Notes under the pieces: model-generated | Database searches by the model: none | What the model was told of the DNA's origin: nothing | Seen by the model: only the letters and a program-made list of their open reading frames with translations | Position numbers and translations under genes: made by a program | Source: Janthinobacterium silvisoli | Lineage (GTDB): Bacteria > Pseudomonadota > Gammaproteobacteria > Burkholderiales > Burkholderiaceae_D | NCBI RefSeq assembly: GCF_014200725.1 | Contig: NZ_JACHCL010000002.1 | Location: 868,001 to 932,000, forward strand | Direction: 5' to 3' | Length of the DNA stretch: 64,000 nucleotides | Shown here: positions 17,434 through 29,553 of the stretch, piece after piece | How positions within the stretch are numbered: the first letter of the stretch is position 1 | Layout of the letters: every line of letters begins with the position of its first letter

Positions 17434-17488
17434 TTTGTCCTCGCTGCAGAACACGCAGCGATAGCAAAGAGTAGCAAGCAGTAACAAT

Positions 17489-17573
17489 GCCCACGTGGCG
17501 GAATTGGTAGACGCGCATGGTTCAGGTCCATGTGCCTTCGGGTGTGGGGGTTCGAGTCCCTCCGTGGGCACCA
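17489..17573 (+). tRNA. tRNA-Leu(CAG), copy 2
   Basis: Same as copy 1 except TTC for TTT in the variable arm. CCA is encoded (17571-17573). It is the first unit of a 172-bp tandem repeat made of an 85-base tRNA and an 87-base spacer. Confidence 0.97.
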
Positions 17574-17660
17574 CTACCAGCGGCGAGTTGTTCATCGCTG
17601 TAGTCCGCAGTAATAGCAGTAGCAATACGAGTAGTACGCAGTAAAAATAGCAGTATCAAT

Positions 17661-17745
17661 GCCCACGTGGCGGAATTGGTAGACGCGCATGGTTCAGGTC
17701 CATGTGCCTTCGGGTGTGGGGGTTCGAGTCCCTCCGTGGGCACCA
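17661..17745 (+). tRNA. tRNA-Leu(CAG), copy 3
   Basis: Identical to copy 2. Anticodon CAG, CCA encoded. The 87-base spacers on both sides (17574-17660 and 17746-17832) differ from each other at only a few positions. Confidence 0.97.
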
Positions 17746-17832
17746 CTACCAGCAACGGGTTGTTCATCGTTGTAGTCCGCAGTAATAGCAGTAGCAATAC
17801 GAGTAGTACGCAGTAAAAATAGCAGTATCAAT

Positions 17833-17917
17833 GCCCACGTGGCGGAATTGGTAGACGCGCATGGTTCAGGTCCATGTGCCTTTGGGTGTGGGGGTTCGAG
17901 TCCCTCCGTGGGCACCA
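17833..17917 (+). tRNA. tRNA-Leu(CAG), copy 4
   Basis: Matches copy 1 in the variable arm (TTT), and its downstream flank matches that of copy 1 through the terminator. It is the last unit of the tandem array. Confidence 0.97.
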
Positions 17918-17930
17918 TTACCGAATTCGC

Positions 17931-24691: not shown

Positions 24692-24766
24692 CTAAAATGT
24701 TTATTTATGTGTGCAGGCAGGTCAGAAAGATGAAATCGCTGGGCAAGCAGCGGGCGAAGGTTTAAA

Positions 24767-24782
24767 CTGTATATAAACACAG
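24767..24782 (+). promoter_or_regulatory. LexA (SOS) box upstream of the FAN1/helicase operon
   Basis: CTGTATATAAACACAG is an exact CTGT-N8-ACAG match with an A/T-dominated centre and flanks A...TA, close to the enterobacterial SOS consensus. It lies 38 bases upstream of the fan1 ATG and directly precedes a TAAAAT -10-like box (24783-24788), so LexA bound here would cover the promoter. The same site is 145 bases from the divergent MFS start, probably too far to control it. Confidence 0.8.
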
Positions 24783-24819
24783 TAAAATCTTCTTATTTTA
24801 GAATTACCCTATCGTCACC

Positions 24820-26478
24820 ATGTTGAGAGTCCTGGAAAATCCCCTGTACTATCTGGACAATTTCCAGGGCGTGCTGAACTGGATCAGCGAGCGTTATGCC
24901 GATTTGCTGAGCCCTGAAGAAACGCGCTTCATTAGCCGGTTCGCATTATTGCCGCTGCCTTCGCGCGCACTATTTGTGCGTCTGGTGATGCGCAAGGGTT
25001 GTCTGTTCCGCGCCAGCAAACTCAACTACGAGGAAATCGGCGACACACGCGCCGCCGCCCTGCCCTTGCTGGAATTAAAATGGGTAGAGCTGGACCCTGC
25101 CATTTCGCTTGATGCACTGTTTGAGTTGCTGCTGAAACCCGAAATCAGCCAGGCATTCCAGCTTGCCGCTCCCTTGAAAGCGGCCCGCAAGGCCGAGCAA
25201 CTGGAAGCGCTGCGCGAGCAATATTCGCAGGAGCAAGCCTTCTCGGCCTGGTATCCGGCATCCGATGATCTGCTGTACCGGATTGACAATCAAGACCTGT
25301 GCGACCGGCTGCGCCTGATTTACTTTGGCAACTACCACCAGGACTGGTCGGAATTCGTGCTGTCCGACCTGGGCGTGTACCAGTACGAAAAAGTGGAATT
25401 TTCCAGCCAGTCGCGCGGTTTTGGCACGCGCCAGGATATCGAGCTTTATGAAATGCTGCACCAGTGCCGCGAGCGCTTCAATGAAGGCGTAGAGCCTGCC
25501 GACGTGCTGCTGCAACTGGGAACGCTGGCGGCGCGCGATGCACACAATCCCTGGCTGGCCAGCCGCCGTGAAAAGCTGCAATTCCAGATCGGGCAGCACC
25601 TGGAGAAATGCCAGGATTGGCTCGCCGCCTACCGCGCTTATGCCGATTGCCGCTATCCCGGTGCGCGCGCCCGCGCCATCCGCGTGCTGGAAAAAGATAC
25701 ACAGCCGCAAGCGGCCTATGACAGGCTGATCATCGCGCTGGAAGCGCCGGAAAGCGAGGCAGAGCGCCAGTTGCTGCTACGCATGGCGCCCCGCTTGCGG
25801 CGCACGCTCGGCCACCCGAAACAGCCGGCAGTCGCGGCCGTGCAAGCGGTCCGCATCGACCTGCTGCTGCCGCCGCCACAGCAAGCGTGTTATGTGGAAG
25901 CGGTAGTGCAACAACACCTGGCGCAAGACGACGCGCCCGTGTATTACGTGGAAAATACCCTGCTCAACTCGCTGTTTGGCTTGCTGTGCTGGCAGGCCAT
26001 CTTCAAGGCTATTCCCGGCGCCTTTTTTCACCCGTTTCACCGGGGTCCGGCCGACTTGCACAACGCTGACTTTTACCCACGCCGCAGCGGCGATTTCCAG
26101 GCTTGCCTGGCAAAGCTCGACAGCGGCGCCTACCAGGCGACGATACGCTCCACCTACGCTGCCAAGGCAGGCATCGTTTCGCCATTCGTCAGTTGGGAAG
26201 TCCTCGATGATGGCTTGCTGGAGCTGGCACTGACTTGCATCCCCGCCATGCATTTGAAAAAGGCGTTTGAACGTATCTTGCTCGACATCAAAAGCAACCG
26301 CAGCGGCTTGCCCGACCTGATCCAGTTCTGGCCAGCCGAACGGCGCTACCGCATGATCGAAGTCAAAGGCCCGGGCGACCGCCTGCAAGACAACCAGCAG
26401 CGCTGGATCGCCTATTGCGCCCAGCACGCCATGCCGATCAGCGTGTGCTATCTGCAATGGCAGGACGTACGCGTATGA
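24820..26478 (+). CDS. fan1: FAN1-type VRR-NUC nuclease
   Basis: 552 residues, close to Pseudomonas FAN1 (~559). N-terminal winged/SAP-like region (LLSPEETRFISRFALLPLPSRALFVRLVMRKGCLFRASKL), a helical TPR-like middle, and a C-terminal VRR-NUC domain (~430-552). The PD-(D/E)XK catalytic set is visible: D499 in SGLPDL, E514 and K516 in IEVKGPGDRL, with the QRWI that follows in the family. The 15-residue spacing between D and E matches the bacterial enzyme. FAN1 cuts 5' flaps and digests DNA past interstrand crosslinks. The next gene starts inside its stop codon (ATGA). An upstream LexA box suggests SOS induction. Confidence 0.92.
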   Translation: MLRVLENPLYYLDNFQGVLNWISERYADLLSPEETRFISRFALLPLPSRALFVRLVMRKGCLFRASKLNYEEIGDTRAAALPLLELKWVELDPAISLDALFELLLKPEISQAFQLAAPLKAARKAEQLEALREQYSQEQAFSAWYPASDDLLYRIDNQDLCDRLRLIYFGNYHQDWSEFVLSDLGVYQYEKVEFSSQSRGFGTRQDIELYEMLHQCRERFNEGVEPADVLLQLGTLAARDAHNPWLASRREKLQFQIGQHLEKCQDWLAAYRAYADCRYPGARARAIRVLEKDTQPQAAYDRLIIALEAPESEAERQLLLRMAPRLRRTLGHPKQPAVAAVQAVRIDLLLPPPQQACYVEAVVQQHLAQDDAPVYYVENTLLNSLFGLLCWQAIFKAIPGAFFHPFHRGPADLHNADFYPRRSGDFQACLAKLDSGAYQATIRSTYAAKAGIVSPFVSWEVLDDGLLELALTCIPAMHLKKAFERILLDIKSNRSGLPDLIQFWPAERRYRMIEVKGPGDRLQDNQQRWIAYCAQHAMPISVCYLQWQDVRV

Positions 26479-28730
26479 AGTACACCATTGCAGTACGGGC
26501 CCTGTGCGAATTCACGGCCAAAATAGGTGATCTGGACCTGCGCTTCACGCCCTCGCCCACTTCGCAGGAAGGCATCGCCGGCCACGCCACCGTCACGGGC
26601 CGGCGCAATGATGATTACCAGCGCGAAATCAGCCTGGCCGGCGACTTCGGTCCGCTACATGTGCGGGGCCGCGCCGATGGCTACGACCCGGCCCGGCGCC
26701 AGCTGGAAGAAATCAAGACCTATCGGGGCGAACTGGACAAGATGCCGGCCAACCACCGGCAATTGCATTGGGCACAGGCGCGCATCTATGGCCATTTGCT
26801 GTGCCAGCAATTACAACTGCCCATGCTGCGCGTGGCGCTGGTGTATTTCGATATCGCCAGCCAGAAAGAAACCGTGATGCACGAGGAATGCACGGCCGAG
26901 GCGCTGCGCACCTATTTCGAGCAGCATTGCAGCTTGTTCCTGGAATGGGCAGAACAGGAGCTGGCGCACCGGCAAGCCCGCGATACACAATTGAAAGCAA
27001 TGAGCTTTCCCCATGCCACATTTCGCCCGGGTCAGCGCCAGCTGGCAGAAGCCATGTACAAAGCCAGCACCCGCTCCTGCTGCCTGCTGGCGCAAGCGCC
27101 GACGGGCATCGGCAAATCGGTAGGCAGCCTGTTTCCCATGCTCAAGGCTACGGCCGCGCATGGCCTCGATAAGGTGTTTTTTTTGGCGGCCAAGGTACCG
27201 GGGCGGCAAATGGCGCTCGACGCCTGCGCCATCGTGAAAAACAGCGCCCCGCTGCTGCCGCTGCGCGTGCTGGAATTGAGCGCCAAGGCCAGCGCCTGCG
27301 CGCATCCTGATAAAGCTTGCCACGGTGAATCATGTCCGCTGGCACGGGGCTTTTATGACCGCTTGCCGCTGGCGCGTGCGGCGGCACTGGCCAGCGGCTT
27401 GATACTCGACAAGGAAGCCGTGCGCGCCATCGCCTTGCAGCTGGACGTGTGCCCGTACTACCTGGGCATGGAACTGGCGCGCTGGAGCGATGTCGTCATC
27501 GGCGACTACAACTATTATTTTGACCACAGCGCCATGCTGTACGGCATGACGGTCGCCAACGACTGGAAAGTCAATGTGCTGATCGATGAAGCCCACAATA
27601 TGGTGGCCCGCACGCGCGGCATGTACACGGCCGAACTGGAGCAGGCCGAACTGAAAATGCTGCGCAAGATCGCGCCAGAAGCACTGAAAAAGCCGCTGGA
27701 CCGGGTATCGCGCCAGTGGACTGCGTTGCTGAAGGAACAGGATAGCGATTATCTGGTTCACCCTGCCCTGCCGGAAAAATTCTTTGCGGCCTTGCAAAAC
27801 GTGGCCACGGCTTTTGGCGACTATATGACCGAACACGCGGCCGCGCTCGATGAAGAGTTGCAGCGCTTTTATTTTGACGTGCTGCTGCTGAACCGGCTGG
27901 CCGAAAGCTTTGGCGACCATTCCTTGTTCGACGTCAGCAAAACGGCCAGCGGTTCCACCGTCTGCATCCGCAATATCGTGCCAGCGCCGTTCCTGAAATC
28001 GCGCTTTGAAGCGAGCCGCAGCACGGCCCTGTTTTCCGCCACCCTGAGTCCCTGGAATTACTACAGCGACACTCTGGGCATGCCGGAGAGCACGGCCTGG
28101 GTCGATGTGGAATCGCCATTCCAGGCCGAGCAGCTGGCCGTGCGCGTGGCCGATACCATTTCCACGCGCTACCAGCATCGCGCCGCATCGCTGTTACCCA
28201 TCGCCGAGCTGATGGCGCGCCAGTATGCGGAAACACCGGGTAATTACCTGGCGTTCTTCAGCAGCTTTGATTACATGGAAAAGACGGCCACCTTGTTCGC
28301 GCAGCACTTTCCTGACGTCCCCATCTGGCTGCAACCACGCCGCATGGACGATGGCGCCCGGACGCAATTTTTAGGACGTTTTGGCCTGGAAACGCGCGGC
28401 ATCGGCTTTGCCGTGCTGGGCGGCGCATTTGGCGAAGGTATCGACTTGCCTGGCGCGCGCCTGATCGGCGCCTTTATCGCCACCTTGGGCTTGCCGCAGA
28501 TCAATCCCGTGAATGAACAGATACGCCAGCGCATGGGCGACATTTTCGGCGCCGGCTACGACTACACGTATTTATATCCCGGCATGCAGAAAGTGGTGCA
28601 GGCGGCCGGCCGCGTGATCCGCACGCAATCGGACAAGGGAGTGGTCTACCTGATCGACGACCGCTTTGCGCGGCCGGAAATCCGCCAGCTGCTGCCCATC
28701 TGGTGGGATGTGCAGCTGGCCGAACGGTAG
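26475..28730 (+). CDS. PD-(D/E)XK nuclease-XPD/DinG-type Fe-S helicase fusion
   Basis: 751 residues from ATG 26475, overlapping the fan1 stop. An N-terminal RecB/Cas4-like nuclease domain is visible: D68 (GRADG), E79 and K81 (EEIK), then Q101-x3-Y105. An SF2 helicase follows with Walker A APTGIGKS (K214) and DEAH box 371-374. Four Cys at 275, 282, 287 and 326 sit between motifs I and II, as in the Fe-S cluster of XPD, FancJ and DinG. Late motifs include FSATLSPWNYYSDTLGMP and QAAGRVIRTQSDKGVVYLIDDRF. Such helicases unwind 5' to 3'. Coupling to FAN1 points to joint processing of crosslinks or flaps. Confidence 0.9.
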   Translation: MKYTIAVRALCEFTAKIGDLDLRFTPSPTSQEGIAGHATVTGRRNDDYQREISLAGDFGPLHVRGRADGYDPARRQLEEIKTYRGELDKMPANHRQLHWAQARIYGHLLCQQLQLPMLRVALVYFDIASQKETVMHEECTAEALRTYFEQHCSLFLEWAEQELAHRQARDTQLKAMSFPHATFRPGQRQLAEAMYKASTRSCCLLAQAPTGIGKSVGSLFPMLKATAAHGLDKVFFLAAKVPGRQMALDACAIVKNSAPLLPLRVLELSAKASACAHPDKACHGESCPLARGFYDRLPLARAAALASGLILDKEAVRAIALQLDVCPYYLGMELARWSDVVIGDYNYYFDHSAMLYGMTVANDWKVNVLIDEAHNMVARTRGMYTAELEQAELKMLRKIAPEALKKPLDRVSRQWTALLKEQDSDYLVHPALPEKFFAALQNVATAFGDYMTEHAAALDEELQRFYFDVLLLNRLAESFGDHSLFDVSKTASGSTVCIRNIVPAPFLKSRFEASRSTALFSATLSPWNYYSDTLGMPESTAWVDVESPFQAEQLAVRVADTISTRYQHRAASLLPIAELMARQYAETPGNYLAFFSSFDYMEKTATLFAQHFPDVPIWLQPRRMDDGARTQFLGRFGLETRGIGFAVLGGAFGEGIDLPGARLIGAFIATLGLPQINPVNEQIRQRMGDIFGAGYDYTYLYPGMQKVVQAAGRVIRTQSDKGVVYLIDDRFARPEIRQLLPIWWDVQLAER

Positions 28731-28755: not shown

Positions 28756-29154
28756 TTACTGCTTGGCAGCCGGCTTGTCCGCCGCGGCAGTTTTTTTCTT
28801 GGCCGGCGTGCCATCTGCGTCCAATTCTGGCGGGCGAAGAAAATTGCGCAGCTCGATACGCGTCCCGTTTTGCGCCACCACCGACAACTCCAGGGTCATG
28901 CCCAGCGATTGCAGGAAACGGCGCAAGGTCGAGACATAGGTATCGGAACGCTTTTCGAGTTGCGAAACGGCATGCTGCTGGATGCCGAGCTCCCTGGCCA
29001 CTTCTGCCTGGGTCTTGCCCACGGCCTTGCGAAAATCCGTCAAGGAACTGGCGTGCGCTATCATCTCTGCTACTTTTTCCTGAGAAAGCGCGGCGATCCT
29101 TGCCTGCCGCTCGACGGGCAAACCATCAATGACTTCCTCCAGCTTTCTGCCCAT
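28756..29154 (-). CDS. XRE-family antitoxin (HigA-like)
   Basis: 132 residues from ATG 29154, six bases after AGGAG. A helix-turn-helix is clear at ~40-95 (TDFRKAVGKTQAEVARELGIQQHAVSQLEKRSDTYVSTLRRFLQSLGMTLEL). The C-terminal ~25 residues are Lys/Ala/Pro-rich (PAKKKTAAADKPAAKQ), an unusual basic tail for an antitoxin. It lies 18 bases downstream of the toxin gene, the reversed toxin-first order of higBA. It should neutralise the toxin and repress the shared promoter. Confidence 0.82.
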   Translation of the reverse strand: MGRKLEEVIDGLPVERQARIAALSQEKVAEMIAHASSLTDFRKAVGKTQAEVARELGIQQHAVSQLEKRSDTYVSTLRRFLQSLGMTLELSVVAQNGTRIELRNFLRPPELDADGTPAKKKTAAADKPAAKQ

Positions 29155-29172
29155 TTTCAACTCCTTTTACCT

Positions 29173-29553
29173 TTATTTCGCCATGGCGTTCAGCTTGTTC
29201 ACATGCCTGTCATACCGTTCATTCGCCCTGGCCAGCAAATCCCTGTAAAACTTTTCTTCACTCACACCCTGCTTGGCCGCTGCGACTAAAATCACCGCCT
29301 CACGCGTGGTATCGAAAGCAAAGGCGGCCCGCCATACTTCAGCGCCGTGATGGGCCTTGAAACGCAGTTCTTTCATGTTCGGATGTCTGGCGTTTTTCAA
29401 GCTGCCCACCAGGGGGCGCCCGGCAGCAGGCCCCAGCTTCGACAGCGCATCGGCGCTTGCCAGTAACTCATCCTGAACATCGGGCGAAAAAGCGTCGAAC
29501 TCTGCATCGAAGTCATCGTGAAACGTGACCGGCCAACTCTTGGGCGCATCCAC
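29173..29553 (-). CDS. RelE/HigB-family toxin (Gp49-like)
   Basis: 126 residues from GTG 29553, behind a strong GGAGGTG ribosome site. Core features: FHDDFDAEFDAFSPDVQDELLASADALSKLGPAAGRPLVGSLKNARHPNMKELRF, then VWRAAFAFDTTREAVILVAAAKQGVSEEKFYRDLLARANERYDRHV. This is the phage-derived Gp49/HigB pattern. Such toxins cut mRNA at the ribosome. The pair is the only toxin-antitoxin module in the window. Confidence 0.85.
   Translation of the reverse strand: MDAPKSWPVTFHDDFDAEFDAFSPDVQDELLASADALSKLGPAAGRPLVGSLKNARHPNMKELRFKAHHGAEVWRAAFAFDTTREAVILVAAAKQGVSEEKFYRDLLARANERYDRHVNKLNAMAK

Follow-up and report, generated by a model that had tools for sequence, protein, structure and literature searches.

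Is a bacterial FAN1 nuclease gene that is followed directly by a nuclease-helicase gene under SOS control, and what might the two proteins do together? The question is raised by a locus in a 64,000-nucleotide stretch of the Janthinobacterium silvisoli genome (assembly GCF_014200725.1, contig NZ_JACHCL010000002.1, positions 868,001 to 932,000; hereafter the window). Here fan1 overlaps the gene of a RecB/Cas4-type nuclease fused to an XPD/DinG-type helicase, a class named EndoDinG in 2025 (Cheng 2025, PMC11981726, section 3.7). LexA control of this operon in this lineage is strongly supported and, in our judgment, very likely, because the operator resembles those of the organism's own regulon, the box is conserved, it is missing where LexA is missing, and each gene has a box of its own where the two lie apart. 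The same four lines of evidence bear out the SOS control put forward in the original prediction, which was made from the letters of the window. Taken as a whole, that prediction is partly supported: LexA control, the nuclease-helicase architecture and the recurrent pairing with FAN1 all stand. The elements of the locus, in window coordinates, are:

24761..24766, + strand: −35-like hexamer TTTAAA (consensus scan; the same six letters in Janthinobacterium loci L082–L085)
24767..24782, + strand: predicted LexA (SOS) box CTGTATATAAACACAG, filling the promoter spacer (position weight matrix (PWM) score 23.9)
24783..24788, + strand: −10-like hexamer TAAAAT (consensus scan; first five letters also in L082–L085)
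24820..26478, + strand: fan1, bacterial FAN1 nuclease, 552 residues (Pfam domains, match to 4r89)
26475..26478, + strand: ATGA overlap, the helicase start over the fan1 stop (sequence)
26475..28730, + strand: EndoDinG, RecB/Cas4-type nuclease fused to an XPD/DinG helicase, 751 residues

The two hexamers form a promoter-like site (9 of 12 consensus positions, spacer of 16) and CTGTATATAAACACAG occupies the whole spacer. It is the sole exact CTGT-N8-ACAG sequence within the 64 kb. By chance, 0.47 occurrences of the bare pattern are expected in such a length, and a single occurrence is not surprising. The form with an AT core is expected 0.03 times (at most three mismatches to CTGTATATATATACAG), so CTGTATATAAACACAG is surprising. 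The exact box upstream of FAN1 is as predicted; its distance had been given as 38 bases, and 37 were counted between the box end and the ATG.

A single gene of the source genome (G000) exceeds the Pfam cut-off for LexA, and two boxes lie immediately before it. It contains 61 exact CTGT-N8-ACAG sites, of which 50 were listed; 20 stretches covering 23 of these 50 were examined. Exact boxes precede lexA (two), recA, radA, nadK, recN, imuA and the genes for an error-prone DNA polymerase, a topoisomerase subunit B and SRAP, and high-scoring boxes also precede PA0069-type radical SAM and PAP2 genes. The fan1 box falls within the range of the ten own-genome boxes used to build the PWM (21.3–27.5) and ties for rank seventh among the 50 listed sites. 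The 16-mer at the polymerase gene (G000:C1:1340054, L034) is identical to it. The fan1 operator matches the organism's own LexA operators, those of lexA itself and of other SOS genes. Two of these sites may be described more closely: an exact box 79 bases upstream of the topoisomerase IV/gyrase subunit B gene (G000:C1:1989094, L036) and two tandem LexA-like boxes upstream of a PAP2-family phosphatase gene (G000:C2:1192381 and 1192400, L040).

Conservation was scored in the best 80 of 566 confirmed relatives, mostly Oxalobacteraceae and Pseudomonas, a set that by this selection consists of close kin. Upstream DNA was available for 79 of them (L139 begins at the gene). With a PWM score of at least 12 as the threshold (the maximum among 381 control windows was 12.1), a box was found at 77 of the 79 loci, compared with 38 of 7,900 dinucleotide shuffles; exact boxes numbered 55 of 79, against 8 of 7,900. 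L130 and L147 had no box at threshold. Loss of the box in close relatives had been named in advance as the outcome that would speak against SOS control, and with 77 of 79 loci retaining it, the claim survives. EndoDinG was next door on the same strand in 77 of the 80 relatives (L144, L149 and L150 had none there; two are cut by a contig end), and at least 36 of these 77 adjacent pairs, counted by eye, share the 4-base overlap.

The genus of G711, which we take to be Pseudomonas since the FAN1 of G1028 is 93% identical to PaFAN1, gave a uniform result. All 25 genomes have FAN1 and the box, exact in 8 and with CCAG in the right half in 17; CCAG/CTGG half-sites are present in Pseudomonas lexA promoters too. 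EndoDinG starts at the FAN1 stop in 24 of the 25, and the remaining genome, G1033, whose FAN1 is split into two pieces, is counted neither way. By these comparative tests, CTGTATATAAACACAG is a predicted LexA box whose occurrence goes beyond chance.

The order Burkholderiales was sampled with 300 genomes, 22 of them with a full FAN1 (G062, an 18-bit partial match, was dropped; the match in G267 is in two pieces). A box was present in 14 of the 15 FAN1 genomes with LexA over cut-off and in none of the 7 without LexA (G208, G177, G297, G188, G151, G249 and G219; Pfam cut-off). The association has a Fisher value of 4.7e-5, which treats the genomes as independent though the LexA-less seven represent two families. 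These seven FAN1 and EndoDinG genomes are 98–100% complete, an apparent loss of LexA in two families. Genomes in which the genes are apart are also informative. In G119, fan1 and EndoDinG lie inside different contigs, each with its own exact box (CTGTATATGCATACAG and CTGTACATCCATACAG, respectively). Among the 10 genomes of the order with EndoDinG only, two reach a score of 12 before that gene: G158, whose box is exact, and G098.

The pairing itself recurs well beyond these relatives. In the order, EndoDinG was found in 32 of 300 genomes (the match being in two pieces in G219, G207 and G267) and FAN1 in 22; all 22 have both, adjacent in 21. The presence of the pair in the order is patchy (22/300). 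A phylum sample of 398 genomes (FAN1 E < 1e-100, EndoDinG E ≤ 1e-60) gave 45 with FAN1, 43 with EndoDinG and 36 with both, adjacent in 35; 9 had FAN1 only and 7 EndoDinG only. Fourteen genomes with weaker FAN1-profile matches, none in the EndoDinG list, were dropped; in five of them (G773, G906, G759, G691 and G804) the match spans most of the profile, and counting these would bring FAN1-only to 14. A class sample of 369 genomes yielded 18 FAN1 matches besides G000. Of the 15 loci examined, 10 had an EndoDinG start at most 1.5 kb downstream, at identities from 60% down to 26%, which argues that the pairing is old. Across 75 loci the FAN1 and EndoDinG distances correlate with r = 0.91; joint inheritance predicts such a correlation, although species descent alone can give it. 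The pairing of FAN1 with such helicases in other bacteria, stated in the original prediction, is borne out (21 of 22 in the order, 35 of 36 in the phylum).

Several results weigh against SOS control as a general property of the pair. Within the order, G120 has LexA and no box, and the genomes without LexA belong to two families, so that they represent few independent events. In the phylum, 27 of the 36 genomes with both genes reach a score of 12, and 23 without four scores of 12.1–12.4, which are borderline because the largest control window scored 12.1. The boxes are unevenly spread. All 7 genomes of the order and all 16 of f210 (Pseudomonas-type) have one, f221 has 4 of 8, and the 5 in f234, f58 and f238 have none and show nothing box-like; LexA was found in all three of these five box-less genomes that were tested. 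FAN1 loci without EndoDinG had a box in none of 9 cases (phylum sample). In the class, 4 of 15 FAN1 loci reach the threshold (L051 at 12.1, L052, L055 and L065), as do 3 of the 10 that adjoin EndoDinG, and LexA was present in all eight distant genomes tested (G592, G488, G657, G350, G562, G555, G650 and G359). Because many distant pairs and FAN1-only loci have no box, we conclude that the pair arose earlier and extends further than its SOS control. That control is well supported for LexA-containing Burkholderiales and for Pseudomonas-type genomes. The class sample extends the range of the pairing and restricts the claim of SOS control; it leaves our confidence unchanged because that confidence concerns this lineage.

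Both proteins carry the expected catalytic and structural motifs:

24844..25089, + strand: FAN1_HTH domain, residues 9–90 (PF21315, 123 bits)
25102..25251, + strand: FANC_SAP domain, residues 95–144 (PF18081, 55 bits)
26125..26454, + strand: VRR-NUC nuclease domain, residues 436–545, PD499...E514-x-K516 (PF08774, 113 bits)
26475..26999, + strand: N-terminal PD-(D/E)XK domain of EndoDinG, about residues 1–175 (H37, D68, E79, K81, Q101, Y105)
27093..27119, + strand: Walker A region QAPTGIGKS, residues 207–215
27297..27452, + strand: iron-sulfur (Fe-S) cysteine region C275, C282, C287, C326
27585..27596, + strand: DEAH box, residues 371–374
28224..28709, + strand: helicase C-terminal domain, residues 584–745 (PF13307, 129 bits)

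All three FAN1 domain models exceed the Pfam cut-off, and the HTH, SAP and VRR-NUC domains are present in order. The window protein matches the solved P. aeruginosa protein (4r89) with 607 bits. The catalytic PD...ExK is present; D499 and K516 are invariant and E514 is kept in at least 90% of 20 sequences. As predicted, the ATG of the 751-residue protein overlaps the FAN1 TGA, and that protein joins a RecB/Cas4-like nuclease to an XPD/DinG helicase, with D68, E79, K81 and the four cysteines where they had been placed. The six N-terminal residues and the four cysteines are invariant in 32 aligned homologues; a further acidic nuclease residue named in the EndoDinG review was not assigned one to one. 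The helicase part has a CCCC Fe-S domain and two motor domains in an XPD-type fold. Its best XPD match, tied with those ranked next, is 8rev, a structure stalled at an interstrand crosslink. On architecture, the helicase is a predicted member of the EndoDinG class. It is not DinG or YoaA in the strict sense, scoring 81.9 of 680 bits for YoaA and 74.9 of 598 for DinG (NCBIfam equivalog cut-offs).

Where FAN1 is missing, EndoDinG may have another partner. Directly upstream of EndoDinG, a protein of about 300 residues was found in 4 of 13 FAN1-less genomes: G131, G204, G005 and G1010 (L219, L221, L223 and L293). A profile search placed it in 7 of 13 EndoDinG-only genomes and in none of the 16 FAN1 genomes or the 6 that lack both genes (7/13 vs 0/16, Fisher 0.001). 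The protein has invariant D148, E167 and K169 in a PD-(D/E)XK-like arrangement; searches of Pfam and NCBIfam gave nothing over cut-off, and the PDB sequences offered no substantial match. A modest model (predicted local distance difference test, pLDDT, 61.9) matches the functionally uncharacterised protein 3dnx. Motif and model suggest a nuclease with a winged helix. The box check took in five genomes (G1000 and G158 were left out). In G171 the protein lies apart from EndoDinG with its own exact box, CTGTATGAAAGTACAG; the box of G204 agrees at 7 of 8 positions, inspection by eye shows a similar one in G1010, and G131 and G005 have none.

How do these observations compare with published systems? 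Bacterial FAN1 from P. aeruginosa (PA1865, PDB 4r89/5y7g) shares its domains with the window protein over the whole length, and the catalytic D, E and K are kept. Neither a helicase partner nor LexA control was found described in the bacterial FAN1 literature, of which our coverage was partial. For EndoDinG (PMC11981726; F. magna DinG, PDB 9kqh), the main text of the review has no FAN1 or VRR, and its EndoDinG section mentions no SOS control; section 3.7 gives the endonuclease of B. bacteriovorus EndoDinG as unpublished data. LexA-controlled DinG and YoaA are likewise SOS-induced XPD-family helicases (PMC11981726). No FAN1 partner is named for them there, and the window protein, which carries an additional nuclease domain, scores far below their cut-offs. 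Archaeal XPB-Bax1 (PMC7293015) also pairs a superfamily 2 (SF2) helicase with a nuclease that has a domain resembling VRR-NUC; it uses XPB rather than XPD, serves excision repair and has no fused second nuclease. FANCJB and FAN1 of Arabidopsis are epistatic for mitomycin C (PMC6550410), which places an Fe-S helicase and FAN1 in one pathway; unlike the pair described here, they are separate eukaryotic genes without an operon.

A joint role of FAN1 and EndoDinG in DNA repair is, in our view, highly probable. The fuller account, that this SOS operon serves to open up branched DNA at crosslinks and blocked forks and to trim it, is probable. By binding between the −35 and −10 elements, LexA would keep the operon off. 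RecA-triggered cleavage of LexA would then allow both proteins to be made together from one message, with coupled translation, as the box, the promoter and the ATGA overlap lead us to infer. EndoDinG, with its XPD-type motor (5'-to-3' by family), may unwind DNA beside the lesion and present a 5' flap; FAN1 orthologues, including that of P. aeruginosa, process such flaps (PMC4103454). Judging from its family, FAN1 would cut the flap strand and unhook the crosslink, and the EndoDinG nuclease domain may trim the displaced strand, much as Dna2 does. The same pair and switch persist in many relatives, which suggests a common means of repairing heavily damaged and perhaps cross-linked DNA. Crosslink repair is plausible, and we lean modestly towards crosslinks as the main substrate. 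A broader proposal is tentative, with somewhat less than an even chance: that proteobacteria hold a dedicated LexA-switched crosslink-repair module built around EndoDinG with an exchangeable nuclease (usually FAN1, elsewhere the PD-(D/E)XK-like protein), a bacterial counterpart of FANCJ-FAN1, with PA1865-PA1866 as unrecognised LexA targets.

Expression data from P. aeruginosa bear on this proposal and on its chief rival. In PMC12796719, PA1865, named there a crosslink-unhooking nuclease, and PA1866 are induced by ultraviolet C (UV-C) and placed outside the known LexA, PrtR and AlpR regulons; PA1865 is also induced by ciprofloxacin. The gene order in G1028 indicates that PA1866 is presumably EndoDinG. 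The UV-C induction agrees with LexA control, and LexA would explain a response reported without a known regulator. Other published observations pull the opposite way: hydrogen peroxide repressed PA1865 and the known LexA targets PA1044/PA1045 were unresponsive in the same study, UV-C does not point to crosslinks, and in chicken DT40 cells, as cited in PMC6550410, loss of FAN1 and FANCJ is synergistic and therefore indicates separate pathways. Induction by UV-C and ciprofloxacin would suit a general SOS pair that trims 5' flaps, R-loops or resected ends at any stalled fork, crosslinks being one of many substrates. DinG-family helicases do serve replication stress broadly, and the RecB-type N-terminal domain resembles resection nucleases (PMC11981726). 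Nevertheless, the role documented for eukaryotic FAN1 is crosslink repair (PMC4103454, PMC6550410), and FAN1 recurs with one helicase class; we consider the general pair rather unlikely.

An anti-plasmid or anti-phage nuclease-helicase placed under SOS control, like type IV-A CasDinG, was also weighed. The PADLOC model 'typeIV_DinG, CAS-IV-A associated' matches the helicase (387 bits), relatives of EndoDinG occur in 14 plasmid records, and its presence in the order is patchy, as noted above. However, no cas model matched among ten neighbours and no CRISPR-like array was found in 19.5–34 kb; FAN1 had no PADLOC match and none among phage records at E 1e-10; and FAN1 and EndoDinG co-diverge, with FAN1 in all 25 genomes of one Pseudomonas genus. 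These results make a defence role very improbable. The expected frequency of the bare pattern would allow the box to be coincidental and the two genes to be neighbours without joint function, a reading to which box conservation, LexA dependence and G119, with its genes apart, leave hardly any room. The plasmid records themselves are from Burkholderia (4), Legionella (3), Cupriavidus (2), Listeria (2) and three single genera; none of their EndoDinG relatives exceeds 60% identity, and the Legionella plasmids are 74–137 kb, while other records are of chromosome size.

The proposed SOS-controlled repair pair bears on the means, other than UvrABC, by which non-enteric bacteria unhook interstrand crosslinks. 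Bacterial FAN1 has structures, and within our partial coverage of the literature we found no pathway described for it. In Burkholderiales and Pseudomonas-type genomes the recurrent FAN1-EndoDinG pair is under LexA control, and it would give FAN1 a regulator and a partner. For PA1865-PA1866, reported in 2026 to respond to damage with no known regulator, it leads to a prediction that can be tested; it is also a simple setting for the question of FAN1 with an Fe-S helicase that is under study in plants and animals.

Elsewhere in the window, 28756–29553 on the − strand encodes HTH and Gp49-like (DUF891) proteins, a toxin-antitoxin-like pair convergent with the operon. At 17477–17922 lie three consecutive tRNA-Leu (CAG) genes, together with a 172-base unit repeated 2.6 times.

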